A stretch of DNA of 64,000 nt. Source: Hydractinia symbiolongicarpus. Its lineage: Eukaryota > Cnidaria > Hydrozoa > Anthoathecata > Hydractiniidae. The position numbers and the translations under genes are program-made. The stretch is taken from contig NC_079876.1 in assembly GCF_029227915.1 (NCBI RefSeq), positions 27,627,828 through 27,691,827 on the forward strand. The letters are read 5' to 3'. The notes beneath the pieces are model-generated. The model did not search any database. It saw nothing but the letters and a program-made list of their open reading frames with translations, and had not been told where the DNA came from. Position 1 is the first letter of the stretch. Each line of letters opens with the position of its first letter. Of this stretch, positions 8,717-54,115 are shown piece by piece.

Positions 8717-9460
8717 AATCATCAATAACCAACTTTACTTGGAAACTGTTCAACATACGTAATTATATGCGCACGATTAATAAAAGGAATGTATCATTTA
8801 AATTCCAACCAGTGACAATTAATCAGGTGAATAGAGTACTAAAATCGGTTAAAACGGCTAAAGCTGCTGGTATTGACACTATCCCCGGTAGGATAATTAA
8901 AGACATCTCAAACGAACTAGCTGCACCTGTCATGTTCTTGATAAACAAGAGTTTGGAAACTGGTACATTTCCAACCTGTAAAAAATCTGCAAAAATAACA
9001 CCATTGCATAAATCTGGCGATCGCTCAAACATATATAACTACCGACCCATTTCCGTACTAAATGTGTTGTCTAAAGTCATTGAACGAATCGTCTACGACC
9101 AGCTAGCTGATTATTTAGAAAATCAAGATCTATTGAGTGAACACCAATATGGTTTTCGACGAAAAAGATCTACACGTAAAGCGGTTAAATCACTTGTTGA
9201 CGATATAAGATACAATATGGATAAAAGTAAGACAACCGGAGCTCTATTCATGGATTTGAGAAAGACCTTTGATACCGTAAACCATGGCTGCCTTCTCCAG
9301 AAACTGCCTTATTATGGTATTACTAGCACTGAAATTGATTGGTTAAGCAGTTATCTTTTTAATCGAAGTCAAACTGTTTTCATTGATGGAGCATACTCAG
9401 ATCCTGAAAATATGACGCATGGTGTACCCCAAGGTTCCATTCTGGGTCCATTGCTATTTA
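8680..9460 (+). pseudogene. LINE 3 reverse transcriptase, 5' half
   Basis: RT fingers and palm: AKAAGIDTIPGRIIKD, ITPLHKSGD, NYRPISVLN, YGFRRKRST, FMDLRKTFDT (first catalytic Asp) and GVPQGSILGPLL, up to the TA where the pogo-like transposon inserted. The frame differs from the upstream linker by one shift near 8690. The matching 3' half resumes at 12938. Confidence 0.88.
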
Positions 9461-9475
9461 CCTTAAGGGAACTTA

Positions 9476-9680
9476 TTTTGGCGGGAACTAATTTTGGCGG
9501 ACGAAGGAAATCTAAAAAAAATTTAATTTTGGCGGGAACTAATTTTGGCGGATCAACGAAATTTTTAATTTTGGCGGGAACTTATTTTGGCGGGTGGCGG
9601 TTTTTTTTAATTTTGGCGGGAACTTATTTTGGCGGGTCAGCGGATTTTTTAATTTTGGCGGGAACTAATTTTGGCGAGTG
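9476..9680. promoter_or_regulatory. Left array of E2F-like sites
   Basis: Five full copies of TTTTGGCGGGAAC at ~9476, 9527, 9569, 9611 and 9653, each followed by a shorter half-site TTTTGGCGG, spaced by ~42-51 bp. The core matches the animal E2F/DP binding consensus (TTTSGCGGGAA-type). All copies point the same way. They may also be transposase binding sites. The E2F reading is inferred from sequence identity only. Confidence 0.6.
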
Positions 9681-9774
9681 AAGGATTTTTTCAAATTTCA
9701 ACGAAAATTTTCTTTGGTAAAGATGTAGAAATAAGCATTACAAAGCAAAGAATTTTAAAACAAATACTAAAAAT

Positions 9775-11615
9775 CTACTCTTCTTCATCGTCTATGATAA
9801 TGTCAAATGCATTCCGACTAAAGTCTATGTCATCCTCGTCACGCGTGTACTCCTCTTCTTTGTCATCGTCATTTTCGACTCGCACGTTGATGAAGCTATC
9901 CTTTAATAAATCTGGCGCATTGATTATGTCGGTTATGGGCTGAGTAATTACACTATTGCTTTCTGGCAGCGGTGATAGATCTTGAAAAGGGTCAAGGGAT
10001 TCAAGTGAAGTGGATCCCATGCGAACTGCGTCGTAAATTCCAGATGCTTTCCACCCATTCAAAACGACTTCACGGCCATCTGCCGAAGTGATATGGTTAT
10101 AAAACTGGAGGAGCCAACTTGCATGAAGAGGCTTGATGGTGGTCAGCTTTAATTGAATATTTATATCTTCGATCTTTTTGTTAAGGGATAGCTCTTTCTC
10201 GATCTGTTTTGAATACCATTCAGTGAACAAATTTCTCATGAATTGCTTGCAATGATTATTCACAGTAAGATCCAAGGGCTGGAATATATGTGTCATGTTA
10301 CTTGGAACCAAAACCAGGAAGATGTTGTTCTTCTTCAGCAATTCGGTAACTTCCTCAGTAATTTGTCCTCGAAAGACATCGAATATTAGAAGAGCAGCTT
10401 GCTTTGGGTTATTTAACTTCTTCCTCTGGTCTTCAACGTGCTTTAGAACGATCTCTTTGATGACTTTGATGGATTCTTGTGTATTGCTGTAGTGTTTGGG
10501 ATTAACGCTTAGTGAGAACGATTCGGGGAATTCAAACTTTGGGAGGCTTTGATTTGTTTTCCCCCCATATATCAGTTGCATTGGCAGAAAAGAACCATCA
10601 AGCGTAATAATAAAGGTACCAGTAAGGCATCTTTTGTCGGAAGATCCAACGATAGGGACGGACGATGAACCCTTTTTCGCCATGGTGTGATTCATTCTTG
10701 GAACAAACTTAAGAGGTGTCTGGTCCAGATTCATAACAAGTTGGTGAGGGATGCTGTGTTGTTCGATGGTCGAAACAATATCGTGAAGAAATAGTAATTC
10801 GCACTCCTTTTTGGCTCCTTCAGTGATTTCAACTTTGGAGGTCGTTTTCATTCTTTTCTTGAAACCCATTCTCTTGAAGAGGCTTTTTGCCCAACTGTTA
10901 TCAATTTTAATATGCCCCAACTCAAATTGAGGGTTTCGTGATATTAGAGCTTTCGCTGCAGCGGTTGCAACTGTTCTTGAAACAACACCTCCTCGATTTC
11001 TCAGTGCAATTAAAAATCTTTGTACCATCTCATCTAGACTGCCAAGGAACAGAGGTCTACCGCGTTTCAAAGGAACAAATTTGGTTACCACGCTACGTTT
11101 TTCTCGGGTTGAATCTTTCAGCTCTTTTTTGTAAAGATTGCCAAATCTTCGAGCTGTACTCTCACTTAACGGCCTGTCTTTGGTTTGAAACTTTGTGATT
11201 GCAGCCGCACCACCATGAATCGCAACATATTTTCCGATATCAAATCTTTCTTTTTCTGACCAACGGTTGTATGATTTTTTGCCACTGGATTTAACATTTT
11301 CAGTCGCGTCTGTAACAGCTTCGTAGTCTAACGAACCAAGGGATGATTCTTGCTGGAAGTCAGTTGGTTGTGGGCCTAAAATGAATAAAACGAACCACTA
11401 TGTAATTGCGAATTTTGACCAAAAATTAAAAATTTTCAAACAAAGAAAGAAACTTCTTCGCAGGTAGGTATAACAAAAAAAAACATCAAAGAGAAATACT
11501 TACTTTGTTCCCTAGAACTGTTTGAAGGTGTTTCGTCTGAAGTTTTTTCCTTTTCAGCGGCCCTTTGTTGAGCTTCTTTCTCTTGTAATTTAGCTAACTT
11601 CCTGATGTAAGACAT
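9775..11615 (-). CDS. Pogo-like transposase, two exons
   Basis: Predicted 570 aa: exon 1 11504-11615 (start ATG at 11613-11615), intron 11376-11503 (GTAAGT...TTTAG, 128 bp), exon 2 9775-11375. The splice joins in frame and adds ~133 N-terminal residues to the long open frame. A first helix-turn-helix-like segment (~70-120, RWSEKERFDIGKYV) is followed by a CENP-B-type DNA-binding domain (~140-215, SWAKSLFKRMGFKKRM). The DDE_1 catalytic core has Asp255 (NLDQTP), Asp370 (LLIFDVF) and Asp406 (QPLDLTVN), all present. The C-terminus is strongly acidic. It would cut and paste the element at TA sites. No stops or frameshifts, so it may be competent. It converges with the HIRAN gene. Confidence 0.88.
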
Positions 11616-11689
11616 TTTGAAAGCCGGGAGATAAAAAAGGAAACGTAAGTTATCTGTATCCTGTATATTTACTCGAACATAAACATTCC

Positions 11690-11900
11690 ATTCACTTGGC
11701 CTATATTTACACTAAAAATCGAACAAAAACATTCTTTTTTTCTTGGCTAAGGCCCGTTTAGACTACCCAATCGAACAAAAACATTCTTTTTTTCTTCGCT
11801 AAGGCCCGTTTAGACTAACCAATCGAACAAAAACATTCTATTTAATTGGGAAAGTTCGGTCTACACTGACAAATAGAACAAAAACGTTCTATTTTCATGC
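11690..11900. repeat. Short tandem repeat upstream of the HIRAN gene
   Basis: Three to four imperfect ~60-bp units containing TCGAACAAAAACATTCT and GGCCCGTTTAGACTA (11708-11880). They lie between the divergent 5' ends of the transposase (11615) and the HIRAN gene (11971), so they occupy the shared promoter region. A regulatory role is possible but unproven. Confidence 0.6.
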
Positions 11901-11970
11901 TAGGCAATTAAAAAATCGATCGATTGACATTTTTGTTTTTCATCAGAGCTAGAAAAGAAAAGACGTCCAT

Positions 11971-12621
11971 ATGGCTTACAACAAGACGTTCGAGTTTACA
12001 GCTGCTGTCAGAGGATTCCATTATTATAAAACTTATTGGAAACCTGAGGAAAATCAATCACTGGACTGCTTTCATGAGAACAACAATGTTTTCGATAGAT
12101 TTGCAATCAAAGTTTGTGAATTCGGAAATGACAAACCAGTTGGCCATTTACCCAAAGAAATCTCAAGGGTTACAAAATTTCTTCTGGACAGAGGAGCGTC
12201 TATGAAATCCACGTTGACAAGTGTACACTATCGAAGATCACCTCTCGTTCAAGGAGGCTTGGAGATCCCCTGTAAAATAACTGTTACTTTACCAGGGACA
12301 GTAAACAATCTTTTGGTTCTTGCAAGATACCAACAACTTGTAGAAGCCTTGTATACAGAGCCGAAAGAGGAATTGATTCTTGGTTCGTTCTTACATATTG
12401 CAGTTATTTTAGATGTCGTGGTTCCAACCGAAGAGAGACCAAAGCGTAAAAAAAATACAGCCAAAAGCCAAAGCAAAGAGACGAAAAAGCAAAAAGATAT
12501 TCGAAACTTTTTTGGAAACACCTCAGCTGCACCAGCCCCAAAAAGGCAAAAAGTTAACAACAAACCTAAAAAGTCGTCACCATCGTCAAGCAAGGACTTA
12601 GAAATCATAAATATTGATTAA
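11971..12621 (+). CDS. Transposon-borne HIRAN-domain protein with PIP box
   Basis: 216 aa, intact, ATG at 11971 following AT-rich sequence. Residues ~8-110 match the HIRAN domain: an aromatic-rich start (VRGFHYYKTYWKP), the N..FDRFAIKV block, VGHLPKEISRV and a LLDRG strand. In HLTF and Rad5 this domain binds 3'-OH single-strand DNA ends at stalled forks. A basic NLS-like linker (~155-172) follows, then QKDIRNFF at residues 174-181, an exact QxxIxxFF PCNA-interacting box. The last residues DLEIINID after a serine cluster resemble a SUMO-interacting motif. There is no ATPase or nuclease domain. The gene lies inside the transposon, convergent with the transposase. The PIP and SIM readings are motif matches; function is inferred. 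Confidence 0.8.
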   Translation: MAYNKTFEFTAAVRGFHYYKTYWKPEENQSLDCFHENNNVFDRFAIKVCEFGNDKPVGHLPKEISRVTKFLLDRGASMKSTLTSVHYRRSPLVQGGLEIPCKITVTLPGTVNNLLVLARYQQLVEALYTEPKEELILGSFLHIAVILDVVVPTEERPKRKKNTAKSQSKETKKQKDIRNFFGNTSAAPAPKRQKVNNKPKKSSPSSSKDLEIINID

Positions 12622-12729
12622 AAATTATCTTGTATTAGAGGTTTATTATGACATAATATTTCTAGCGCAAAGGTATATTTCTAAAAGATATAAAAAATTG
12701 AAAAAAAGTTGATTTTTGTCGATTTTTTA

Positions 12730-12937
12730 AGGGGAACTTATTTTGGCGGATCAACGAAATTTTTAATTTTGGCGGGAACTTATTTTGGCGGGTGGCGATT
12801 TTTTTTAATTTTGGCGGGAACTAATTTTGGCGGGTGAGTAAAATATTTAATTTTGGCGGGAACTAATTTTGGCGGATTTTGCCCCAATCCGCCAAATCCG
12901 CCAAAATTAGTTCCCGCCAAAATAAGTTCCCTTAAGG
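12730..12937. promoter_or_regulatory. Right array of E2F-like sites and inverted terminus
   Basis: Three direct copies of TTTTGGCGGGAAC plus one inverted copy at the extreme end (GTTCCCGCCAAAA at ~12910-12922), with several TTTTGGCGG half-sites. Most of the array is in the same orientation as the left array; only the outermost ~55 bp are inverted. The intervening segment TTTTGGCGGATCAACGAAAT occurs in both arrays. Confidence 0.6.
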
Positions 12938-13763
12938 TATTCTTCTTATCAATGACTTACCGTGCCAATTGAAACACTGTCGAGTATTGATGTATGCTGA
13001 TGACACAGTCATATATTCATCAAGCAAGTCGTTGGATGAAATTGAACATTGTATAAATTTGGATGCAAGTATCATTCACGATTGGATGAAGGAAAATTGC
13101 CTAATTCTTAATCCAAAAAAGGGCAAAACAGAATTTGTCGTCTTTGCGTCCCGAAAACCACAAGCCTCTGTCAATATTGTGATCGATCAAAATGATATAA
13201 ACCAACCAGATTATTACGAATACCTTGGGATTCAACTGGATACTCACCTTAACATGAACCATCACCTTAAAAAAACATACAAGCGTATAACCTCACGCAT
13301 CAAACTTTTATATAAAATACGTTACAAAATTTCTCCAAATGTTGCTGAAACCATCTTTAACGCAATGATCCATCCACTGTTCTTTTACTGTTACGACGTA
13401 TTTGGTGGAATGAATAAAACATGGATTGGAAAATTTGAGTCCCTGCTGAGAAGAGCTAAGCACATCATCAAAACCCGCAAGAATTGGTCAACATTCGTCA
13501 CTCAAAGAAAACGGAAAGTAGCAATTGATGTGTTCAAAGCCGTTAACGATATTACTGTTGACAGCAATTACAAATTGGTTAGCCATTCGATTAACACCAG
13601 AGGAAATAGATCTAAATTAGTCTTACCTATCATCAAGACGGAAGCTGGTCGGAAGCTTACGTATTATCAAGGAGCTTTAGTTTTTAATAGTCTCCCCTCT
13701 AATATCAGGGAAGAAAAGAGTATGATAAATTTTAAAAAGTTTTTGAAACAAAGTGAGTTCTAG
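12938..13763 (+). pseudogene. LINE 3 reverse transcriptase, 3' half
   Basis: The RT continues immediately after the transposon: VLMYADDTVIYSS (catalytic YADD at ~12987-12998), WMKENCLILNPKKGKTE, YLGIQLD, then thumb and a C-terminal region to the stop at 13761-13763. This half is a single uninterrupted frame of 264 codons from 12969. It belongs to the frame ending at 9460. Confidence 0.9.
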
Positions 13764-26187: not shown

Positions 26188-26651
26188 ATGGCAAGCATTA
26201 TGGTACTCACGGGCGGGGCGATAATCAACGCGCTCGCATTTTCAGGAACTAACTTTTTATTCTAAAAAATAAATGGGCACGGGGAAGCGGAAAGGAAGCG
26301 ACATCACCTGACTCTTGAAAAGCTTCAAGCTGACCAAGCAGCTTGGGTCCGGGATAGACAGAAAAAATAGACTGGTATAACCGACGGCGGGAGGAACAAA
26401 AGCAAGCTGATGAAGATTTGAAGGAACTCGATAAGGGTATGAGACAATATTTCATCGCGACCATAGAGAAAGCTGCAAAATTATCCGATTTTTATACACC
26501 TTCGAAGCAGCAACCAGACGGTAAACTCACCTTCGTTCTCGGCTCCTTAGCTCTTTTGGGGTTCGTAGCGTACAAGTATATGTTACGTGTTTTTGATATG
26601 TATAATAAATGTCAAAGCATATTGTTACTCCAGAAGAAGCGAAAAAATTAA
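26188..26651 (+). pseudogene. Small conserved Polinton protein (coiled coil plus C-terminal helix)
   Basis: Starts MASIMVLTGGAIINALAF (26188), a hydrophobic N-terminus, then a frameshift at ~26263. A charged helical region (LEKLQADQAAWVRDRQKK, 26290-26370), another shift, and KELDKGMRQYFIATIEKAAKL..LSDFYTPS with a C-terminal hydrophobic helix (FVLGSLALLGFVAYKYM) complete it. This order is familiar from cnidarian Polintons between capsid and integrase. Function unknown. Its 3' end overlaps the integrase start. Confidence 0.6.
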
Positions 26652-27611
26652 GCAACATCTATTACCAACCAGAAAATCTATGTATCGGAAGAAAAGCGAT
26701 CAAACTACTCGCTGAAAACTCTGGTCTTTCCAAAAAGAGAGTTATACACTGGCTATCTAGGCAACTACTATGGCTCAGACATATCAAAGGCCTGAAAAAG
26801 ATCAATTACCCTCATTTCACTATTACAAAACCTAATGAGATCCACCAATTTGACTTGCTACACATGCCACATGACAAGCTGTATGGAAACACTTATAAAT
26901 ACATCCTCACGGGTATTGATGTAGCTTCGTGCTACAAAGTGACAAGGCCATTACGTACCAAGAAAGCCAGCGAGGTAGCCGACATGCTCAAGGATATTTA
27001 TAAAGCAGGACCTCTCAAATATCCGAGTATATTTCAATGCGATAACGGCTCGGAATTCAAGTCAGATGTGACGAAGCTGTTGGAGAGCCAAGGAACCGAT
27101 ATTAAACGGGCTACCACCAAATACCACCATACTTTCACGGCTTTCGTCGAAAGCTACAACAAGGTACTCGCGGAAAGATTGTTCAAGCCTCAAGATGCCC
27201 AGGAATTGGTCACTGATGAAACAAGTACTACATGGGTCAAACACCTATACAATATCGTGAAAAGCATGAACAACACCAAGACTATTATGATAGATATAAA
27301 ACCTTCAAAGGCCATTAAACTCGATGAAGTACCGCTTGCGAAAAGCGAGGAATATCCTGAGGAAAAGCCTCTACCCGACGATGGCCTTTACCTCTATCTC
27401 CTACAGCCTGGAGAAGAACATGGGGATGCAAGGAGACGTGCGACGGATGCCTATTGGAGCAAGAAAACATATAGACTCGACTATATAGTGACAGGTACGA
27501 GGTTATTATATTACTTGACAAAATGACCCCTCACGTAGTTTCGTGTCAGATGAGCTCATGCTAATACCAAAGGATGTAGAACTACCTCCCGAGCACGTTA
27601 AAAATTGGTAA
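26609..27611 (+). pseudogene. Polinton integrase (rve/DDE), C-terminus frameshifted
   Basis: Open for 305 codons from 26609. After an N-terminal helical region the catalytic core shows HQFDLLHMP (first Asp), FQCDNGSEF (second Asp) and AFVESYNK (Glu): the complete D,D,E triad. Downstream the chromodomain-like C-terminal part (WSKKTYRLDYIV) runs into a stop at 27524-27526; the remainder (SDELMLIPKDVELPPEHV) continues in another frame to 27611. It would catalyse insertion of the Polinton. The catalytic core itself is intact. Confidence 0.88.
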
Positions 27612-27661
27612 TATTTCTCGATTTTTGTGGCTCATAAGAGCTACAAAAACCATATAAGAGA

Positions 27662-28414
27662 TTATGTCATGCTGATATCATACACGCCCTCGAATAACTC
27701 GCGCGTGGCGTCATCTGGTATACTAAAACGATTTCGCCATGAATTAGCTATACCAAGATTATCATCCTTGAACCTATTCCATGTATGTACGGCGTTTGGA
27801 TCATCGCATATTGGATGTCTCTCGATCATATTAGGATACATCTCCCGTAGGGTGCGGAGTTGTTCATTTAAGGATCTACGTTGGCAACGAATAATATAGT
27901 GGGGATGTTGGCCTTTTTTCCCACATTCATTAGAATCATTTTTATCAATAACACAGAGTACATTATCGTATGGATAACCATTAGGAACATACCGATCACG
28001 AAGCTCCGCAATTTCCAATGTTCGTAGATATAGCTGGTTCTCTCTCTCTTGAAGGTCATCAGTGAGCATTGCCAGGGCTTGACGATGTTCTTTGACGGTT
28101 TCTTGTAATTTTTCGATACCCTTTAGCGCAAGCCATCTCATAATCTCAACGGCCTTTGGTTTTTTTGAACGCGCACAAATCTCAAGAGCAGCGTCCAATG
28201 TAATGAAAGCATCATGAGGATATTTTCCTTTGCCAAGGGGTTGGTTTGAAACCAACCCTATTTCATTACGTGAAATGATTGGAATATCCCGATACGACTC
28301 TGAAATATTAGCAATACCCAAGAACCTTCCAAGATCTACACGTTTAAAAAGAGGCTGATTTTGCGCATCGAATATAGTCTCAATGGCAGGTAATGTGTTT
28401 AACGTGAGTGACAT
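27662..28414 (-). CDS. BRO-N-like protein with central coiled coil and viral-type C-terminal domain
   Basis: 250 aa, intact, ATG 28412-28414. Residues ~10-105 fit the BRO-N/ANT domain (PLFKRVDLGRFLGIANI; HDAFITLDAALEICARS; VEIMRWLALKGIEKLQ), a DNA-binding module of large DNA viruses and phages. The coiled coil ~105-140 (LTDDLQERENQLYLRTLEIAE) is followed by a C-terminal domain with VLCVIDKND and HYIIRCQRRSLNEQL, similar to the DUF3627 region that follows such domains in insect DNA viruses. It lies convergent with the integrase and is unbroken in a mostly broken element. Confidence 0.72.
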   Translation of the reverse strand: MSLTLNTLPAIETIFDAQNQPLFKRVDLGRFLGIANISESYRDIPIISRNEIGLVSNQPLGKGKYPHDAFITLDAALEICARSKKPKAVEIMRWLALKGIEKLQETVKEHRQALAMLTDDLQERENQLYLRTLEIAELRDRYVPNGYPYDNVLCVIDKNDSNECGKKGQHPHYIIRCQRRSLNEQLRTLREMYPNMIERHPICDDPNAVHTWNRFKDDNLGIANSWRNRFSIPDDATRELFEGVYDISMT

Positions 28415-28420
28415 TTTTAT

Positions 28421-28610
28421 TTAACTAATACTACAACCAAGATCACAATGAGTAGGACGGTTATGAAAAAATACTTGGTATTCCTTTTCCTTTCTAATAC
28501 ATCCCTTAGCTCTTCGTCAAGAGCCTCTAATTGAGATTCAAGGTAGGTATTCTGTCCATCGCCTCATAGCAAGCCCCCAGCTGTTGTTTTAATGTTCTGA
28601 TATATGACAT
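28421..28610 (-). pseudogene. Small Polinton membrane protein, one frameshift
   Basis: ATG at 28608-28610 (MSYIRTLKQQLGACYEAMDR) directly overlaps the ATPase stop. A frameshift at ~28550 leads to a coiled coil (LESQLEALDEELRDVLERK) and a single transmembrane helix (YFFITVLLIVILVVVLV) before the stop at 28421. About 64 aa if intact. Too short and broken to appear as one frame. Confidence 0.55.
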
Positions 28611-29204
28611 TTATTCTAGAACATTCCAAGCCCCGGGGTGCTCGAGACGAATATATAGGCACGCGTGCTTGGACTTTTTCAACTGATTCTTTATAGGCTC
28701 CCAGTCGTTAATTATGTTTGCCTCTTGATCCAGCAAAACAAGATCACTTTTCTCATGTGTGTACCAGAGAAATAACTGCTTCTTTTGTCTCCTCAGATTT
28801 TTGGGAATCGCAGTATACGATTGAGTAAGGAGCCAGAGACTGTGTCTTTTATGTCTTCCGGAGATTGCGAGCTCTAGCAGGGGTTGCCTTTTTTTATCGA
28901 GATTTTCATCGGCTATCGTGTCGTCGACAATAAACAAGCTTTCTTCGCCAGCCAACAGCGACGACAGTTTGCCTATCCAATGGAACAAATTATCACCTGA
29001 ATCAATAAGAAATACATAATCGTCTTTCCAAAGCAATGGTCTATCGAGATAAGAGGCATTCCATCGGAGAGTAGGGCAGAGTAAAACGATATTGTGGAAT
29101 TGTCCCCTGTACTCATGCTCAAGCAGATCAAGAACTCTTTGAGTTTTACCGCACGACGTAGGGCCTGTAAATATCGCTGTATGGGGTTCTTTAACAGTAC
29201 CCAA
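28611..29204 (-). CDS. Polinton DNA-packaging ATPase (FtsK/HerA-like)
   Basis: 197 codons open. Walker A GPTSCGKT at residues ~14-21; Walker B SLFIVDDT at ~89-96. Sensor-like elements follow (AISGRHKRHSLWLLTQSY). Length and motifs match the A32-like packaging ATPases of Polintons and related DNA viruses, which pump DNA into capsids. No ATG is present at the expected N-terminus (frame opens ...NILGTVKEPHTA), so the start codon may be mutated. Confidence 0.85.
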   Translation of the reverse strand: MGTVKEPHTAIFTGPTSCGKTQRVLDLLEHEYRGQFHNIVLLCPTLRWNASYLDRPLLWKDDYVFLIDSGDNLFHWIGKLSSLLAGEESLFIVDDTIADENLDKKRQPLLELAISGRHKRHSLWLLTQSYTAIPKNLRRQKKQLFLWYTHEKSDLVLLDQEANIINDWEPIKNQLKKSKHACLYIRLEHPGAWNVLE

Positions 29205-29250
29205 TATGTTTGTTGTATACCATAGGCATACAACAAAACCTTGAAGGTGC

Positions 29251-29502
29251 TTACTTAGGCTTGGGGACGATAGAGGCTGGCAACCACCCCTTGCTTACGG
29301 CCATCTCACGGCTTCCTCGACCAGCTGTAAAATATGCTACCATTTTCATAACGTCATTTGTGTCCAACTTTGTGCTGGGACTCGAGATCCCAAGGAACCT
29401 CTTCCCAACCATAGCATATCCAATTGTGAACCCGAGGTCCACTATTGTCTCATATATCATATCGATGATTTCCTTTTGCTGAGGGGTAACATTTGAACTC
29501 AT
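29251..29502 (-). CDS. Small conserved Polinton protein
   Basis: 83 aa, intact, ATG 29500-29502. MSSNVTPQQKEIIDMIYETI, then LGFTIGYAMVGKRFLGISSP and AYFTAGRGSREMAV. One weakly hydrophobic helix; no enzyme motif. I recognise it only as a recurrent small Polinton gene near the ATPase. Confidence 0.5.
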   Translation of the reverse strand: MSSNVTPQQKEIIDMIYETIVDLGFTIGYAMVGKRFLGISSPSTKLDTNDVMKMVAYFTAGRGSREMAVSKGWLPASIVPKPK

Positions 29503-29516
29503 GCTTTATTATATGC

Positions 29517-29873
29517 CTATCGCATATGAAAAACATCAATATCTGCCTTAGGCTCCTGCCTCACGCTTGGTTGTTGAACCGCTGGTGCAGGCTGCTGGGT
29601 ACCCGCGGGTCTCTTACGGATAAAATAGTAGGCACCTACCACGAAAATTATTATAGTGGCCAGGCTTCAACCAATGTATATTCCACTTCCTGACTGTACA
29701 GAACTCACTCCAGAAGAGGTTTTGACTGGAGGTTGTACAGCACCCTTTTGTTGTCTAAGATCTTCTTTCCTCTTCTTCATCAGTGCGGCTAACTTGTGAC
29801 TCTGTGCGACTCTCCCTGGGTGCTTTACTGGTTTTGTTATTACCCTCTCTTCTTGTAACTGTTCGTTGCTCAC
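29517..29873 (-). pseudogene. Polinton single-pass membrane protein, in-frame stop
   Basis: Starts MSNEQLQEERVITKPVKHPG (29873), basic N-terminus (LAALMKKRKEDLRQQK), then a TGA after SGSGIYIG at 29667-29669. The same frame continues uninterrupted through a transmembrane segment (LATIIIFVVGAYYF) and a Pro/Gln-rich tail to TAG at 29517-29519. One nonsense mutation is the simplest explanation. Likely minor virion or membrane protein (inference). Confidence 0.55.
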
Positions 29874-29906
29874 TTTTATAAACCACAGGGCTTATAAAAT
29901 CTTCTT

Positions 29907-30415
29907 TTATGATGGAGAGCTTGTATCATTCACCAGTTCACCCTGTTTAGACATCTGCGTATGGTTGATGGTATGGGCAGCTACCAACAGAGGCGCTAAA
30001 AATTTTCCGAATGCTGTATAAACGAGGATTCCAAGCTCAGTCATAGATTCGCGGATGATCAAATCATTTTCCAGATCATTACGGAGAGCCTCTACATCAT
30101 CGATTGGTACAAAATTGCTTATGGTTTTGCTATATAACCCGAGCGCGTGAGTTGACAATGCCTTTGCAATTTTTATTCCTTTCTCATGGAGGTCCTTTTC
30201 AAAAAATTCAGCATGTATTTTGTCAACTGCTTCATCTGGTGCCTTGTCAACAAAACCTTACAGTACAGTACAGTACACTTCTTCGGTAAGAGATGCTGTT
30301 TATTTTTGTGTATTGCATCTTTCAAAACCTGACGTTTGTCGATGGGTTTTGGGCGGTGTTCAAAAGCTTCTGCTGGGGTATCAACTTCATCGAAAATAGC
30401 GGCTAGATTAGACAT
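29907..30415 (-). pseudogene. Polinton conserved protein, frameshift at a pentanucleotide repeat
   Basis: N-terminus MSNLAAIFDEVDTPAEAFEH from ATG 30413-30415, basic region (PKPIDKRQVLKDAIHKNKQH), then a frame change at a TACTG/CAGTA microsatellite (30258-30280). The rest continues in another frame: DKAPDEAVDKIHAEFFEKD, THALGLYSKTISNFVPIDD, LGILVYTAFGKFLAPLLVAA (hydrophobic) to the stop at 29907. Function unknown. Confidence 0.55.
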
Positions 30416-30508
30416 CTTTATTAATAGCTTTCTATACATACAAAAGCAGAACACGATCAATACGTACGGCAGGAGTACAGCGAGACATAGGGATATCTCG
30501 CATAGCAT
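30416..30508 (-). CDS. Tiny hydrophobic N-terminal segment or separate micro-protein
   Basis: ATG at 30506-30508 opens a frame encoding CLAVLLPYVLIVFCFCMY, one transmembrane helix, in frame with the downstream protein starting at 30415. It is either an alternative longer N-terminus of that protein or a ~31-aa protein whose stop was lost. Polintons elsewhere carry a tiny membrane protein of this kind; I cannot decide. Confidence 0.35.
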
Positions 30509-30540
30509 GTTTATTTTTCAAAACAAAACCCTCGTAAGGG

Positions 30541-30597
30541 AACCCTCTGGGTGCTTTGTTGTTTTTGTTGTTGTTGTTGTTTGAACCCAGAGGGTTT
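30541..30597. terminator. Inverted repeat between Polinton gene blocks
   Basis: AACCCTCTGGGT (30541-30552) pairs with ACCCAGAGGGTT (30586-30597), a 12-bp perfect stem with a loop containing (GTT)n/(TTTGTTG). It lies just upstream of the minus-strand block starting at 30508. A terminator or transcript-processing role is inferred. Confidence 0.45.
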
Positions 30598-30599
30598 TT

Positions 30600-31108
30600 G
30601 ATTCTGAGAGTATACCACTCAGAGCCTTTGGTTTTCCATATCCGAGGTGTTTTTCAGTGCTGTCCTGCTTTGCAGGCTTAGTGTATTTGCTCTTTATACT
30701 CTATACAGAATGTCGTGCTTGTACTACGCATTAACGAAACCCACCCTGTAAGTGAGCACTTTCAGAAGCCGTTCCTAGCACTGACATTTAACCGGCATTT
30801 TGGCACAATTTTCCCCGACTGGGACAGTGTGTGGTAGAAACCGGGGCGAGACGGCCGTCTCCAGGTAAGGCATGGTCTCGCCAGCCCATCCGTACCCTTC
30901 AGCCAGGTCTAAGCATGCTACCACAATTTTACTATATATCAAGCTTCGTATATAGCTATTCAGTATCACCTTGAGTATTACCTGTGTGAAAATTCACGCA
31001 TCACCGGTTAGGTCGTTCACGCATCATGTAGAAAACCTCTTGATCATTCAGAAATGTTATCATTTCTGAATGGACGAGGCAAATGAGTTTGTTCTTGTTT
31101 TTACCGAC
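30600..31108. other. Polinton intergenic region with hairpin
   Basis: No gene supported. Holds a perfect 12-bp hairpin (CATTCAGAAATG at 31045-31056, TTAT loop, CATTTCTGAATG at 31061-31072) and a near repeat of TTCACGCATCA (30991-31001 and 31017-31026). It separates the HNH-like gene from the small-protein block. Confidence 0.45.
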
Positions 31109-31669
31109 TCATACTGAAAAGGAGATATATCTACAACCTTTCTTTTGATTCTCCGCGATCCACATTGGATGCATGTTGGTGTAGTGGAGCCTCGCGAGTT
31201 GCACTTCTTCGCTTGGATATTCACCATTATCTCGATACTTGAGTGGTACCTTGTGATTTAGTTCCCACTGTCTCCGGTTGCTCCAGCTCATCCCATCTCT
31301 GAATTGATCTTGGATATGGCCAATGAAAGTGCAGATATTGCATCCAAGGTACTCGGTAGAGGCTATCTCCGTGTCATTGTTTAGAGCAACGCGAATCCTG
31401 GGTAGAATGCGGTGATACTGATACCCAGGAAAATCACAATCCTTGCAGTGTGATTTCTCTTTTTTATGCGGGCATTTGGTACGTTCCCGTGACGTATTAT
31501 GACTATCCAAGCATTTGATACATTGTTTTGTCCGTTGCCCCTTACGCTTGTTGATCTTGAAATTATCAAAAGATAAAGTTTTTTTAGAGTTTGAACATTG
31601 CTTAAACTCCATTTTATTGTTGCTTTTGTGAAGTAGTGCTTCACAAAACTCCGGACAAACGCCCACCAT
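31109..31669 (-). CDS. HNH-like nuclease with N-terminal zinc ribbon
   Basis: 186 aa from ATG 31667-31669; the conserved part starts at a second Met (31612, MEFKQC). The N-terminal Cys cluster (KQCSNSKKTL, TKQCIKCL, KCPH, CKDC) suggests one or two zinc sites. The central block YLGCNICTFIGHIQ...WELNHKVPL has the Cys pair and the E-x-N-H core of an HNH/treble-clef nuclease; the C-terminal NMHPMWIAENQKKG completes the fold pattern seen in nucleases of large DNA viruses. Intact frame. It lies just 8 bp from the polB stop. Confidence 0.6.
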   Translation of the reverse strand: MVGVCPEFCEALLHKSNNKMEFKQCSNSKKTLSFDNFKINKRKGQRTKQCIKCLDSHNTSRERTKCPHKKEKSHCKDCDFPGYQYHRILPRIRVALNNDTEIASTEYLGCNICTFIGHIQDQFRDGMSWSNRRQWELNHKVPLKYRDNGEYPSEEVQLARLHYTNMHPMWIAENQKKGCRYISFSV

Positions 31670-31676
31670 TCTTACA

Positions 31677-31785
31677 TAAGTGGAGAGGTGTGCACGTTAT
31701 CCTCATGTACAACTCTCTTATCATAGAACGCTGATAGACCCAGCTTATTTTGATGATATGTGACCATCTCTTGATTATGTACCGG
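31677..31785 (-). pseudogene. PolB C-terminal tail, cut off by Ginger
   Basis: About 36 codons (HNQEMVTYHQNKLGLSAFYD, then KRVVHEDNVHTSPL and stop) matching the conserved end of Polinton PolB. The rest of the gene starts again at 36534 on the other side of the Ginger insertion. The CCGG copy of the duplication is at 31782-31785. Confidence 0.8.
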
Positions 31786-31965
31786 TGTAGCAGAAAATAA
31801 GTACTCCCTGAAAAAAAGTACTCCCGGAGTACTTATTTCCCGGAAATAAATACTTCCGGAGTACTTTTATCCTGGGAAAAAAGTACTCCCTCTAGGAAAT
31901 AAGTACTCCCCCGATTAAAGCTACGGAGTACTTTTTTCCTAGGAAAAAAGCACTCCCAGAAGAAG
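31786..31965 (+). repeat. Ginger left terminal region: AGTACT-motif array
   Basis: About seven copies of AAGTACTCCC or its complement GGAGTACTT in alternating orientation, interspersed with GGAAATAA/TTATTTCC. The same motif set occupies the right end (36355-36533). Likely transposase binding sites. Confidence 0.75.
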
Positions 31966-32034
31966 ACTCTCCATTGCATGTGTATGAAAAAATTTGAATG
32001 TTTATGTTATTCAAGCTTCTTAATTTTAATCAAC

Positions 32035-33617
32035 ATGTCGACGAATAAGCATGTGAAATTGCAAGATATTAAGAATTATATTAGAAATGGGCAGTACCCT
32101 GCTCATATAAAAAAAAAGGAGACAAAAGTAACTTTAGGAAATCGAGTAAAAACTTTTCAATTGTTGATGGTCATCTGACGTTTAAAGGGACCAGAAGAGT
32201 TATTTTTGAAAATCAAAGAAAGAATGCCATCATTCACGACATACACGAGGGCATCAATGAAACTGTCGAGTCAGTGGCAATGAGTGGTGATAGAGGACGC
32301 GACTCGACCTACCAAAAAGTATCCGAGAGATTTTATTGGCTTGGTATGGTCGATGATGTTAAAAACTATATTCGAACTTGTCAAAAATGCCAAAAACAAG
32401 GGAAAATAGTCAAGAAGATCTCACCTGAACTTCAAAGTATCCATGTCGATTCAAATGTTATGCAACAAGTTGGGGTGGATATATGCAATCTATCCGAAAT
32501 GAATGGCTACAAACACTTGATTGTATTGATTGACTATTTTTCAAAATGGTCAGAAGCCAAACCTGTTCAAGACAAAACTGCCCCAACTGTAGCAAGATTT
32601 TTGTACGAAATGATCTGTCGTCATGGCTGTTTTAAGACACAAATTAACGACCAAGGGAGAGAATTTGTGAACCAAGTATCTGATGCCTTGCTTAAACTGA
32701 CAGGGACAGACCAAAGGGTGACCTCAGCTTACCACCCTCAGGCCAATGGATTGTGCGAACGGCAGAATCGGACTATTAAAGATACGTTAATTAAAGTCTT
32801 GGAAGAAAATCCAGCAAAATGGGTAGATGTTATCGATGGTGTTCTTTTTGCACACCGCGCAAGTATTCACTTTTCGACAAAATTTTCGCCTTTCTTTTTA
32901 CTGTATAATCGACACCCTACTTTACCCATTGACGTAAAGTACGACTTGATCAAGGAACCTGCAGAACTTGGCAAATGTGATGATCCTTTCGACATTGAGT
33001 CATTCAAAGATATCCTAAATTCGAGCTTGAAGCTACGAGAAGTATCACACTGTATTGCAGGGGAAAAAATCGAAAAGGCCCAGAAGAAGCAACAAAGAGA
33101 TTACAATAGACGCCAAAGTCAGCCTGAATCAACCATACCCATTGGCTCACAAGTACTCCTTCAAGATCTGAAACGACAAGATCGAAAGGGTGGGAAATTC
33201 AAATTCAAATGGGTTGGTCCATACACTCTAACATCGATATCAAAAAGAGGCTTATGTGAACTCAGTAATGCAAAAGGGGTTACATTGAAAAAAAAGTATA
33301 ATGTTTCCCTCATAAAACCTTTTTATGCAAGTGAACCGCAAAAGTTTGAAGATACCAGTAAACCGCAAGAGTCTGGAGACGAAGGTCAACCGCAAGAGTC
33401 TGGAGACGAAGGTGAACTGCAAGAGTCTGGAGACGAGGGTGAACCGCACGAAGGTGGACCGCAAGAGTCTGGAGACGAAGGTAAACCGCAAGAGTCTGGA
33501 GACGAAGGTAAATCGTTCGGAGGTGAACCAGAAGCTGAAACAACCCACACCAATCTCAGTTCACGTAAAAACAGAAAAATTATTTTGATCTTCTTCCCAC
33601 TGAGATCGTCGTCTTGA
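32035..33617 (+). pseudogene. Ginger transposase (integrase-like), one frameshift
   Basis: First part from ATG 32035 (MSTNKHVKLQDIKNYIRN) shifts frame at ~32150. The main frame continues from ~32150 through the annotated open part 32274-33617. Zinc-binding region IHDIHEG...YIRTCQKCQKQ (one His of H2C2 replaced by Asp in GDRGRD). Catalytic core VGVDICN (Asp), INDQGREF (Asp), NGLCERQNRT (Glu): complete D,D,E triad. GPY/F-like module GPYTLTSISKRGLCELS follows near 33215. The C-terminal tail has five ~27-bp repeats encoding PQESGDEG (33360-33520). Confidence 0.88.
33360..33520 (+). repeat. 27-bp coding tandem repeat in Ginger C-terminus
   Basis: Five near-identical units of CCGCAAGAGTCTGGAGACGA plus linker, one partial (CCGCACGAAGGTGGA), coding for an acidic PQESGDEG repeat. 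Copies are nearly identical, which suggests recent expansion. Confidence 0.85.
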
Positions 33618-33949
33618 TTTTAGAATATTCAATTAAACATGATTTTGGTGCTTTCAAATCCATTGCAAATACTTGTTTCAGATTTCGAACAATCATCCAA
33701 CCAAGAAGAAGTAGCCTCTTGCCATCCGTCTACCTGAATTTCTACAGTGATTTTCTGGAAAAGCAACCATTCTATGGAAACAAAGTGAAAGTGAGTGTAA
33801 TCAAACTTTCTCGACATTTTGGTTCAGGAAGTGGCACGATCGATGATGTCTGTAAAGCAATCTCACACAAAAATTGGAAATCGGCTTGGTTGATTCTTGA
33901 GAAGCAAAAGCACAGCTGGTTTCTAATTGATCGTGTCTTTTGGAGATAA
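33555..33949 (+). pseudogene. F-box-like segment of Ginger second region
   Basis: Overlapping the transposase end in another frame: NYFDLLPTEIVVLILEYS followed by AFKSIANTCFRFRTII fits an F-box (LP.E....IL......L......C..F). It continues to 33949 (FYGNKVKVSVIKLSRHFGSG). F-boxes link substrates to SCF ubiquitin ligases. The match is by pattern only, and the relation to the transposase frame (fusion or separate ORF) is unclear. Confidence 0.45.
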
Positions 33950-34018
33950 TCGTTTCCCAAAACAAGCCAGTTACCCGAAACCGAATCAAACGAGTGGCTT
34001 CGTAACCGTCTCTATATC

Positions 34019-34285
34019 TTGAAACAAAAAGATAAGGATATCTTGATCTCTAAAGATAGTTGGTTGAACGACAACCTAATGGATGCGGCTCAAAAGCTGA
34101 TTTGTCAAGAAATCGGAACCCCTCTGACGTTCCAGACAGTCCTGAATTCCCAAAAGAAAGATGTTGAGCCATATGAAGCCGTTAACCAAGAGCACATCCA
34201 ACTACTTCATGATGGTCGCAATCACTGGATCCTCAGCTTTTGCTCTAATGGTCGCAATGGTATATTTGTTGATTATTTTTCTTGA
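34019..34285 (+). pseudogene. Ulp1-like cysteine protease fragment
   Basis: WLNDNLMDAAQKLICQEIG and VNQEHIQLLHDGRNHWILS: the entry helix and the catalytic His strand (GRNHW) of Ulp1/SENP-type proteases found in many cnidarian transposons. The protein ends shortly after (GIFVDYFS); the catalytic Asp and Cys regions are absent, so it is truncated. Ginger1 elements are known to carry Ulp1-like domains. Confidence 0.65.
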
Positions 34286-34519
34286 TTGAATTTTTTCTTT
34301 TCTTCATTACCTTTTATAGTTTTATAGTTTTATAGCTAGAGAGACTTTTATTTGGTTTTGGTTTATTGCAATCTTTGAGAACAGGAACTACACATTTTCG
34401 AATTGATTAACAAAACAAAAAATAATTTCTATTTCGTTTTTCTATTTTAAACGATAAGGCTAATCATATATAAATTACGGTACGTTTCATTCGTTAGATT
34501 TGTTGTATTATTTTATACT
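34286..34519. other. Non-coding Ginger interior
   Basis: AT-rich, with a short TTTTATAG triplication at ~34310-34337. No gene seen. Confidence 0.5.
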
Positions 34520-35255
34520 AGTCGATAAAGCCCGTTGAAAAATCCACTTAGGCAGGAGGACAATGTAAAAATTGATTATTTTAGACTTTTTGCTGACGTC
34601 AACAGTGCAGATACAAAAAAGAATTAGCGAAGTTTAGTTTATTGGTTGCCTGTAATGTGTAGAGGCTAAAACCCTCATGAGAAAAATGTATAGGATCATG
34701 GGTTTTCGACGAACGTATAAGGAAATATAAGGGTTTGAAAATTTGGCTGATGTCAGCAAAGACCCGCAATCACACATAAAAATTTTTTCCAGAATTTTAT
34801 ATATCTAATGTCTTCATTGTATAGATCTTGAAAAGCTGATCAAGAAAATGTATAGGATTATGTACTTTTGACAAACAGTTTCAGAGATATTAAGGTTTGA
34901 AGATTTTTTGATGACGTCATCAACCCGTCTATTCCGAAACGGATTCGGGGACCCAGGTTTGGGAAAATAACCCAAATTGGTCCTAGGTGGTCCCTAGTTA
35001 CCCACGCAGTGAAAAATCATTGACGTCACCACCTCGTTTCCTAGTTATTTGGCCTCAAAGTTTTAGGTGCACTGTGATGGCTTCATTAATTTAATATAGG
35101 ATATTGACGTTAAAGTAGTGTTATTTTCGTCGCGCCGTAACGTCAGAAAATTTGACATATTAGAGTTGCATTTTTCGGCAACATCAAAGGAAAATGAAGA
35201 CATCCACTTTGCCTGTCACAGACACACAGACACACTTAGCGTATTATTATATAGA
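34520..35255 (-). mobile_element. Small non-autonomous Helitron inside Ginger
   Basis: Minus strand: starts TCTATATAATAATACGC (35255), includes a GTGTCTGTG run, and ends with hairpin-like GTGGATTTTTCAAC and CTAG (34520-34523), flanked by A and T. Same family as the elements at 44.2-45.6 kb. Interior has repeated blocks with ATGTATAGGAT and TGACGTCA-like sites. No coding capacity. Confidence 0.8.
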
Positions 35256-36354
35256 TGTTTTTTACTTACCTTAACTTACCATTTTTTGATTGAAATGAAG
35301 GCTAAAATGCCAAAATTTACTTACGCTTTTAGATACCGAAAAACACCCCTTTTTGAGCTAAAGAGCAACAATTGAAAAAGAGTAAGATTTGATTGTAAAT
35401 TTCCCTTTTTTATCTGACTTTAGTTTTGATTTTTTTCGCAACTTGTTTGATTTTTACACTGCGAAATTTTAACAATTATTATGCATTAAAGTAGTTTTTA
35501 TTTCGTTTTTCTTTTATTCTTTATCTTTATTATGTTGAGTTTTTGTGATGTCGGATAACACTAATCATTCTTCACAGAAAACATTTTTCTCTTTTTTCAT
35601 TCTTTCATTTCCCATAATGATTTTGCCATCAATTAAATACTTTCGTCACAAACAAGTTTATGGCAAAAAAAAAACAAGACGACTGAAAAGTCGAAAATTT
35701 CGCTAGAAATTAATAATGACGGCTTATATTCGATCAAAAGTTATCGCAAATTGTTCTCCCAGTACCAAAACTTCCCAAATCGTGACGTCATCAAAAAAAT
35801 TTCGAATTTTTTTTTACATCACGTGTTACCTTTCATAACAAAGATCCTTTGTGCAAAATTTCATGCGAATCGGTTCATCCAATCAAAAGTTATCGCGAAT
35901 TGTTCTCCCAGTACCAAAACTTCCCAAATCGTGACGTCATCAAAAAAATTTCGAAATATTTTTACATCACGTGATAGCTTTCATAACAATTCATAATTAT
36001 TGTCAAAACTATACTTCAAGGTTCAGTTTACCCTCGTACTTAGGGATCGTTCACATATGACGGCAGCCTTCATAGGGGAGGGGGGTCTAAAAGTCTGACA
36101 AAATCTGACTTAAGAGGGGGAATCCATTTTCGCGGTCAAAAAATAAAATCAGAAAAATTGCATTTTGCGTGAGCTAATTTTCCTGGTTTTGACCTATTGG
36201 GGACGAGTTTCTTTTATTTTCCTAGGGGTTTGTGAAGAATTTTCAAGAACTTTTCAAAATAATATACTTCGCTGGTTCAAATCTTGGCAAAGAAAACCCG
36301 CAAATAAGCGAAAATTAATTCCCTCAATTTCTATTTCATGTCTTAAGCGTGCTT
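35256..36354. other. Ginger non-coding interior with a ~149-bp tandem pair
   Basis: No gene supported. At ~35733-35990 a unit starting ATCAAAAGTTATCGC and containing GTGACGTCATCAAAAAAATT is present twice with ~149-bp spacing. The rest is AT-rich; 36000-36350 has a short purine-rich patch (GGGGAGGGGGG at ~36076). Confidence 0.6.
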
Positions 36355-36533
36355 ATTTCCTAGGAAATTTATACTCCCGGAAGTACTTATTTCCCGAAGG
36401 AGTCTTTATTTCCTATACTAAGAGTACTCCCGGGAGTATCAATTTCCTGGGAAATATATACTTGGGAGTACTTTTTTCCCGGAAATAAATACTGGGGAGT
36501 ACTTTTTTAGGGGAGTACTTATTTTCCGCGACA
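36355..36533 (-). repeat. Ginger right terminal region: AGTACT-motif array
   Basis: Repeated GGAGTACTT/AAGTACTCC in both orientations, ending TTATTTTCCGCGACA. It pairs with the left end over the outer ~25 bp and shares the motif content further in. Confidence 0.75.
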
Positions 36534-39500
36534 CCGGGAAGCCTACGTTTTTTGCAATATCCAAATCTCCCTTCAGTGCTCCCATATATCTCAACCATGT
36601 CACTTCATTCTGCCTTTTAGACATTCCTTTACATGAAAATTTCGTGCCGTATTTACCTTCGACGAAGTAGCACTTGGCTGTCAGCGCTATCATTCTGGAT
36701 CCGATGAATTCTTCTTTGAACAAACCTCCGGTTCGGCTCGAGTGCTTGTCAGTAACGAGCCAATGAGCTACATTCTTATCGTACTGCTCGAGTAATTCGG
36801 GACGAACAACATTACGTAGGTTATCTCCAGATATGGCAAAATACGCGGAGTCGGTGTCCATATAAATGTACTCAAAATCTCGGCGATCTACGTACTTGTC
36901 GAGAAAATTATAGTAAAATTCAAGCATCCGCAATTTAGCTAATTGATATACTAGGATTCCACATTGATACGCCCTATTTATGGAAACGCCTTGTTTAAGC
37001 CGCCTTACTTCGTACGCGTCTCCAATTTCTTCAAGATCCTCCAAGTAAGGGCTTCTCATTGCTGCATCTACTACCTTTTCATCCTTGTGGTATTGTTATG
37101 TCTCGCCAGGTCTTCTATCATTTTTCCATAGAAGCTATTACCTTTCAATTTTGCTGTATCGTCCGCAATACGTTTATCAGTGTTCTTATCAGCTTGGCGC
37201 CGCGCATCCGCGATTTCTTCCGGGAACCATGCGAATGGTTTACCGCGTTTGTATTTGAGTATTTGATAGCAAGCCGTAATATTTAAACCATGCTCCAGGT
37301 ACCATTTAAGCAGGTCAGTACAAAGCAGGATCTTATCAGATCTCATCACTCCCAACAGCTTTTTAGTGCCCGGTATACGTTTTCGCCTTGTCTTGTTTAA
37401 ATAATTGTGCATATGCTGCGGAATTTGATTGTCAGCGATCTCTCTAACCACAAATAACGGTGACATCTCACTAAATTTGTCGTACAACTCAGTAGGCACC
37501 TCAATATCAACTTGAGCAAACCCGAAAAGCGATCCATCACAAATGTCTCGCACCAGATCATCTATCTTTTCAGCAGGGTCTGCCATTTTTATTAGCTTCT
37601 CCTTACCACAAGGGAAGTCCTGCAGCAGGGTGCTTGGGTAGAGCATATTGGCGTCATACCCGAGTATCGTCTTGCACTTTTTTGGGTCGGTATAAATATG
37701 TGAGCGAATACCCGTCACATCACTCTCATGATACCTGCAAAATACGATCGCGAAACCACCTACCATGCCTGTTTGGAGGAGTTCATAGGCCTCGTTCTTT
37801 GCACACTGCGTACAATCTTTTTGAACCTGTTTACAATCCTCGCATCGGGCTTTGGTGCAACGAGCCTCACATTTATGCTTACAGGGATCCCCTGGGGCAT
37901 AAAGATTTATATCATGGTTCAACCGCAGATACTTGTTCAGAACGTAGCGCATCGACACACCTGGAATGCTCACGGCATCCTTCAAAATGTCAATGTCATC
38001 CTCGTAGTATGTATTGCGGGTCTTGTCGACGGCCTCGATAAATGGTATTACGTCCGCCATATCGTATTCGGCTGACCAATCCAGCGTCGTCACGCATTCT
38101 CTTTAAAAAAACTCATCCCGGAAATCCTGATAATCTTCGGGTGATAGGGAGTTTTTACCACTGAGAGTGCTATAAAATGCCTCATGATCGACTGGGCCCA
38201 TATGGTTCAACTTTTCGTAGCTTTTTAAACACTCGCACGGAAACACTAATTTTTTGAGATTGCAATCCAGCGATTTGCACCATTTTTCATAACTCAGGCC
38301 TGGTGCGAGGAAATTCTTAATATCGATAAATTTGAACTTTAAAGTGGTTAGAAACATATAATCGTTGTCTTTTTTCGCCACTTTGATATTATCATCATCC
38401 GCAATTTGTTCGACAAAATACCGCTTTATCATGTTGGTATCGTACTTGCCACTATTGAAACCTATCACCGTCACTTGATTTACCCATTCGTGCCAAGCAT
38501 TTTGAGTTTGTTCCGGGAGCATATCGAAATCATCCGGCTTGGGATATATACGTTCGACTTCTTGGACAATACGGATCTGTCTCTGCTCTAGTTGCTCAAA
38601 AATTTTTTGCACAAGCACCTTTGGGTCTTCGTTCATGATGAAGGTAGGATGTTCCTGCAGACTATCGTGTATTGCTACGCTGACGGGTATATGCTCGGAG
38701 ATATATGTCAAATCAAACGTTTGCTGCTGGTTCAATGGTGCAAGGAGAGCCTCAAAATCAAATACAATAAAATGGGGACATGCTCGAAATTCTTTCTTGA
38801 ATACCCTCTTAACCTTTGGAGGATTTTCACACTCCCATGCAGTGACAAGATTGTACCCCAGCCCCCGAATGTGGTCCTCTTTGAATTTGGTACGTTTGAA
38901 ATTATTTTTATCTGCGTTGGTTAGCTGTGGTTGACATGGGCATCCATGCCATTTACAGCCGTGGTATTCGTATACTGTTTTTGTCTGAGGATCATACCCA
39001 TCTACCCTATAAATTTCCTTACTACCCTCACGTATCACACGCTCTCCCCCATGCCCGCAAAGAGCATGATGTATATGTCTACCTGTTTGCTCTGACATGG
39101 CCTCAAGCCATTGACAACGCGCGTAACTGAAACCTTTATCGGGGTAGAATACCCTCTCCGAGCTACTCTGCATCCGTTCGATCTTTTCACCTCTGCAAAT
39201 GATCTTGGTCTTGATACCTTCGCATTTGTTATTCTTGTGTCGTGTGAGGTTCTCCGATCTAGTAAATCTTTGTGTGCAAGGATCGCATTCCCAATGCTGC
39301 GTTAGGACCTCCATTTTCTTGATATAAAAACAGTGACCACCTAACATACCAATATTGATCGTGTATAAGTCTTTTTTGTATTGGCCTTGTCCATATACGA
39401 GACGCCATGGGGCCTTATCGTTGTTTATTTTTGGTTCAAACACTCTTATGTTAATTTTGAATTTTTTGGCGATACCCTCCAAATCCACGAGCCTCGTGGC

Positions 39501-53985: not shown

Positions 53986-54115
53986 GTTTTTACTTTTATT
54001 TCCTTGTATGTATAACATTCCAAATGACATTTTAGAGTGAAAACTCAATGTAAAATAGGTTATTTATGTTAGTATTTTGATTTGTTTATATTCCATGAAA
54101 GTTGATTTCTGCGGT

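Follow-up and report, generated by a model that had tools for sequence, protein, structure and literature searches.

A pogo-superfamily transposon of Hydractinia symbiolongicarpus with a second gene for a predicted HIRAN and PIP-box protein

Transposons of the pogo superfamily belong to the IS630-Tc1-mariner transposons, and the one or two ORFs described for them encode transposases (PMC7386202). The transposases of pogo, Tigger and Lemi1 are reported to carry a PIP box, whose function is described as unclear (PMC5371812). In Tn7, target selection is assigned to a separate protein, TnsE, which is described as reading recessed 3' ends together with the beta clamp (PMC5371812). HLTF and Rad5 combine a HIRAN domain with a Snf2 motor and a RING domain. 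Rad5 is described as having no PIP box and as using an LxLF motif together with HIRAN (PMC13050448). Binding of PCNA by HLTF is disputed between papers: no detectable affinity is reported in one (PMC7804152), and a putative APIM is named as responsible for the affinity in another (PMC13050448). We describe here a transposon from a 64,000-nt stretch of the Hydractinia symbiolongicarpus genome (the window). Unlike the pogo superfamily as described in PMC7386202, its second gene encodes a non-transposase protein, predicted to join a HIRAN domain to a PIP box.

The element is a complete pogo-superfamily DNA transposon of 3477 bp (9461..12937). Its terminal inverted repeats (TIRs) are perfect over 41 bp and lie at 9461..9501 on the plus strand and 12897..12937 on the minus strand; inspection of the flanks places the TA target duplication at 9459..9460 on the left and 12938..12939 on the right. 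The insertion site is a reverse-transcriptase gene, which we take for a LINE. The left piece of this interrupted gene matches RVT_1 at 81 bits (Pfam), while the match of the right piece, at 25.5 bits, does not reach the cutoff of 29.6. When the transposon and one TA are removed, a single open reverse-transcriptase frame, ..PLLFILLINDLP.., is obtained that runs through GPLLF-I-LLINDLP. Because the empty site restores the surrounding frame, there is good support for the boundaries of the element and for the TA duplication. The insertion looks young, as judged by the perfect TIRs. The whole analysis is based on this one copy of the transposon, and no second copy of either the transposase or the HIRAN-PIP protein was found within the window.

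The transposase is encoded on the minus strand by a predicted exon 1 (11504..11615) and an exon 2 that includes the stop codon (9775..11375), separated by 128 nt (11376-11503) that are predicted to be a GT-AG intron. The predicted spliced product is 570 aa long and open throughout. Exon 2 contains a DDE_1 domain (Pfam E 2.3e-10, 40.8 bits, cutoff 22), in which the triad D255, D370 and D406 (spliced numbering) was assigned by eye from motifs as DD35D. The element thus has a DDE_1 catalytic domain, a DDD triad of known spacing that fits the superfamily (PMC7386202), a TA duplication and TIRs; the original prediction of a pogo-like element is borne out by the DDE_1 transposase, the duplication and the DD35D triad. 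Since the DNA-binding domain matches HTH_Tnp_Tc5 at 14.5 bits, under the cutoff of 22.2, the transposase is placed at the level of the pogo superfamily only.

A pattern search of the 570-aa transposase revealed neither a strict PIP box, Qxx[ILMV]xx[FYW][FYW], nor an APIM. Two relaxed PIP-like patterns match it, at LLQFY and KQFMRNLF. With the strict PIP box and APIM absent from the transposase, PCNA docking, if it is real, most likely resides on the second protein. The C-terminus of the transposase, FDIIIDDEEE (9775-9807, minus strand), is acidic with a hydrophobic core and appears somewhat SIM-like by eye; the SIM pattern does not match it.

The second gene is an ORF of 216 aa with an ATG start on the plus strand (11971..12621). 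It is divergent from the transposase gene, and the two share an intergenic region of 355 bp, the presumed promoter (11616..11970), in which a unit of 51-52 bp is repeated in tandem about four times (11686-11891), three of the units having GAACAAAAACATTCT or a sequence near it. Several origins for this ORF were considered and rejected. A chance ORF is rejected because none of 1000 first-order Markov simulations of the 1437 bp of local sequence contained an ORF of at least 216 aa, the longest being 175. The surrounding retrotransposon is rejected as the owner, since its own frame continues across the empty site, and a host gene adjoining the element is rejected because the ORF sits between the perfect TIRs. 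When codon use was compared with that of transposase exon 2, the ORF gave the best fit in its own frame among the six compared. Three pairs of weak, AT-rich inverted matches (20-30 nt, 73-80% complementary) bracket the ORF; it is unlikely to be an element of its own that was inserted into the transposon. In a copy as young as this one appears to be, the intact frame alone does not show selection. The kept HIRAN core and the PIP box argue for selection on this ORF.

The original prediction had assigned the protein a HIRAN domain and no enzymatic domain, and both parts agree with the Pfam results. Residues 8-86 (11992..12228, plus strand) match HIRAN (PF08797) with an E-value of 7.8e-8 and 32.5 bits, which passes the curated cutoff of 24.7; the match can be regarded as one of medium strength. 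No other Pfam family was found in the 216-aa protein at E-values up to 1, neither a Snf2 motor nor a RING domain. By-eye comparison with HLTF indicates that the full domain may extend to around residue 130. A sequence search against solved structures listed seven entries at E-values up to 10. The first five are all HLTF HIRAN domains (E 0.0073-0.01, weak when taken alone), the remaining two match less well and have names that point to no relation, and Rad5 is not among the seven. This list suggests a HIRAN domain of the HLTF type.

In a pairwise alignment anchored on HLTF N90/N91, this pair corresponds to an identical N38/N39 in the transposon protein. Identical residues were also found for HLTF Y72 (Y18), D94 (D42), H110 (H59) and Y73. 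HLTF Y93 is replaced by F41 and R71 by H17, and beyond residue 75 the alignment is too gapped for use. The HLTF N90A/N91A double mutant is reported to have bound none of the DNAs tested, and Y72 and Y93 are reported to border the dinucleotide cavity (PMC4666394). Charge reversal at R71 is reported to block binding of 3'-OH ends (PMC11366124), and among the HLTF alanine changes described in PMC4666394, which include position 71, only the double change at 90/91 fully impaired HIRAN function. Because the DNA-binding residues of HLTF are mostly kept, binding of 3' ends by the transposon HIRAN domain is plausible. An AlphaFold model of the 216-aa protein calculated with no alignment had a mean pLDDT of 34.5 and was left unused; the fold of the HIRAN family is a six-stranded barrel. 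An APIM-like RFAIK is present at residues 43-47, inside the HIRAN domain and probably in a buried strand. Since it lies in the conserved HIRAN core, it is not read as a docking motif.

The tail of the protein (residues 155-216) comprises 62 residues, is basic (18 K/R vs 6 D/E) and is predicted from its composition to be flexible. It contains the PIP box QKDIRNFF at residues 174-181 (12490..12513, plus strand), exactly where it had been placed by the original prediction. The motif is canonical and fits the PIP consensus given in PMC5371812 and PMC13050448. The two phenylalanines of QKDIRNFF are the sole aromatic residues in the tail, and five of the six ILMV-class residues lie within the PIP box or the last seven residues. 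When the tail was shuffled 50,000 times, a PIP motif came up in 0.014% of cases; for whole-protein shuffles the figure was 0.7%. The proposal that a putative PCNA function has been moved to a second protein thus appears supported by a canonical PIP box there and by a transposase without a strict PIP box or APIM.

The protein ends in LEIINI, which was compared with the SIM consensus used here and gives two overlapping SIM-like matches, LEII at residues 210-213 and a weak IINI at residues 212-215 (12604..12615, plus strand). SIM-like motifs appeared in 3% of tail shuffles with one pattern and in 5.7% with either pattern. The predicted LEII is present, yet motifs this common are suggestive only, and the SIM reading is given little weight.

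The transposon protein shares the HIRAN domain with HLTF and Rad5 and has most of the HLTF-type DNA-binding positions. Unlike them it is without the Snf2 motor and the RING domain and has a canonical PIP box, and by its domain content it is not a member of the HLTF/Rad5 family. It had been described as the targeting part of such a factor, a description that holds for the HIRAN domain and its largely kept DNA-contacting residues but does not simply extend to the PIP box. Since Rad5 is described without a PIP box and the reports on HLTF differ (PMC13050448, PMC7804152), an HLTF-type HIRAN domain joined to a PIP box is a different combination.

Predicted proteins of marine invertebrates seem often to include HIRAN proteins with a PLVQGGLEI-like stretch, and PLVQGGLEI was for this reason chosen as a search pattern. 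If they are indeed common, the gene would be widespread rather than rare. The pattern occurred in 16 stretches of genome contigs; a tblastn search with the HIRAN protein against these 16 loci gave a best E-value of 0.035 and mostly short matches centered on the pattern, none of which was taken as a relative. In viral contigs, searches with the HIRAN protein, transposase exon 2 (438 aa), the terminal repeat, the PLVQGGLEI DNA pattern and a profile of the query and HLTF all found no relative. Phage and plasmid records gave no match at an E-value of 0.01, the best PHROGs match had an E-value of 0.12, and NCBIfam gave none. No eukaryotic transposon with a HIRAN domain was found in the titles and abstract openings of the open-licence literature on HIRAN and transposons or transposases; since only this literature was covered, the absence is weak evidence of novelty.

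Arrays built from a 42-bp unit occupy both ends of the element. The left array consists of 42-bp units (9476..9698, plus strand), overlaps the left TIR and has five TTTTGGCGGGAA sites, at 9476, 9527, 9569, 9611 and 9653. The right subterminal array (12732..12876, plus strand) has the same orientation, is 94% identical to the left array over 143 bp and has three such sites, at 12767, 12809 and 12851. A ninth site lies inverted in the right TIR, at 12911. These sites match TTSSCGSSAA, which we take to be the E2F/DP consensus. All nine matches to it in the window are inside the terminal repeats (arrays and TIRs) of the transposon, and a Markov model of the window gave a mean of 0.58 sites and a maximum of 3 in 60 simulations. 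Being copies of a single repeat, the nine are not independent and amount to one event or a few.

The arrays are co-oriented at the two ends, whereas the TIRs are inverted. Symmetric binding sites for a transposase would be expected to be inverted, so the co-orientation speaks mildly for a different function, for example the binding of a host factor. Against such a function, the arrays are positioned past the 3' ends of both genes, away from their promoter. Alternatively, the array sites could simply be bound by the transposase. If E2F does bind them, the terminal sites would fit a link to S phase. Long co-oriented arrays next to a 41-bp TIR set this element apart from the pogo superfamily as described in PMC7386202. 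DNA transposons rich in E2F-type 10-mers have likewise been described in Brassicaceae, where E2F sites were amplified and the carriers are mainly plant MITEs, with Helitrons in addition (Henaff 2014, as reported in PMC12595863). In the present case the carrier is a complete pogo-type element, with the sites in its terminal repeats. The right end also contains a strong foldback (12850..12923) with 33-nt arms that are 97% complementary. The single-stranded DNA fold of 12840-12937 has a z of -10.2, and none of 200 shuffles was equally stable. Of the 26 inverted pairs 25 were listed, and in no listed pair do both arms fall within the left end. The E2F-like terminal repeats, the foldback and the parallel with TnsE go beyond the original prediction.

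The intact element, its two ORFs, the HIRAN match, the PIP motif and a transposase without a strict PIP box are direct observations. To account for them we tentatively favor, at a little short of an even chance, a non-catalytic accessory factor that couples the transposase to DNA undergoing replication or repair synthesis and gives it a TnsE-like choice of time and target. The HLTF-type HIRAN domain would grip 3'-OH ends or fork-like DNA, and the flexible basic tail would dock on PCNA through the PIP box. The protein would also contact the transposase and so link it to replicating or repair-synthesizing DNA, and its most likely purpose would be the choice of time and target, as for TnsE of Tn7. 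This accessory role is favored because the ligand pair that the sequence suggests, a 3' end and PCNA, is the pair of TnsE. If the reading is right, the 216-aa protein is, like TnsE as described in PMC5371812, a separate reader of 3' ends and a sliding clamp; the parallel is a functional one, and the host kingdom and the transposase are different.

The features of the protein thus suggest that it may be made to hold DNA ends and the replication clamp, and that jumps may be timed or aimed by replication. Evidence for the accessory factor includes a HIRAN match above the cutoff, kept HLTF residues, the PIP box, a transposase with neither a strict PIP box nor an APIM, and the E2F-like terminal sites. 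Against it are the single copy, the change of R71 to His, a HIRAN match of medium strength and the low mean pLDDT, and also the relaxed PIP-like matches in the transposase and the RFAIK within HIRAN. The E2F-like sites count against it as well as for it, being non-independent and distant from the promoter. A wider version, in which a eukaryotic counterpart of TnsE built from HIRAN and PIP acts with terminal E2F-type arrays to tie expression, excision and targeting to S phase, is considered doubtful. Proteins of pogo, Tigger and Lemi1 likewise have a PCNA box, but there the box is described in the transposase (PMC5371812), whereas here a separate protein carries it together with a DNA-end domain. 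The PIP box can therefore be broken without touching the transposase, and the question becomes testable.

The main rival of the accessory factor is a shield or decoy, which we consider rather unlikely. The motorless HIRAN-PIP protein would cover the front face of PCNA and the 3' overhangs that transposase cleavage produces, and would thereby protect the post-cleavage complex and the excision gap from resection and from host remodelers of the HLTF/Rad5 type. Cleavage of the Tc1/mariner type leaves short 3' overhangs, which counts for such a role. The isolated HLTF HIRAN domain (residues 1-180) is reported to inhibit the removal of Cas9 post-cleavage complexes by HLTF, and also to be dominant negative against end resection, with a much weaker effect for N90A/N91A (PMC11237066). 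Since the isolated domain inhibits HLTF, the transposon protein, which likewise has HIRAN but no motor and retains the NN pair, could act as a shield. However, HLTF from which HIRAN had been deleted is reported to have regained fork reversal when an isolated HIRAN domain was supplied in trans (PMC4666394), and a PIP box would be superfluous for pure shielding. If replicating DNA is targeted, the element would provide a eukaryotic parallel to TnsE; if ends are shielded, it would encode an HLTF decoy.

A helper in gap filling, which would bring PCNA-dependent synthesis or ligation to short strand-transfer gaps or to the donor site with no effect on target choice, has a distinctly smaller chance. 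The PIP box and 3'-end reading are what gap repair would need. Host repair is generally expected to fill integration gaps, though, and elements without such a gene would be expected to have theirs filled in this way. A post-insertion repair role is imagined in a review for the contact between LINE-1 ORF2p and PCNA (PMC5371812). The ORF could also be a passenger, that is, a captured fragment of a host gene or the gene of a nested insertion that is intact only through the youth of this copy. The young-looking insertion with its perfect 41-bp TIRs means that the intact frame proves little, only a single copy is at hand, and the weak AT-rich inverted matches around the ORF would fit such an origin. 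We regard it as improbable, because the HIRAN core is recognizable despite large divergence from HLTF with its DNA-binding positions mostly kept, the ORF shares the divergent intergenic region and codon use with the transposase, and a fragment in decay would not be expected to have a PIP box just where the tail has its only aromatic residues. Accessory factor, shield, repair helper and passenger are all four inferred readings.

Other mobile elements are present in the window. A Polinton/Maverick-like gene set (26609-40515) includes an rve integrase, a Bro-N protein and an A32-type ATPase. ORFs at 36-39.5 kb resemble a DNA polymerase by eye; a Pfam scan of two of them found nothing at 1e-3. A piggyBac-type transposase region (52189-59798) contains three copies with 99.8-100% identity, one forward and two inverted, and is either a recent duplication or an assembly artefact. 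The two inverted copies lie in tandem units of 2.8 kb.
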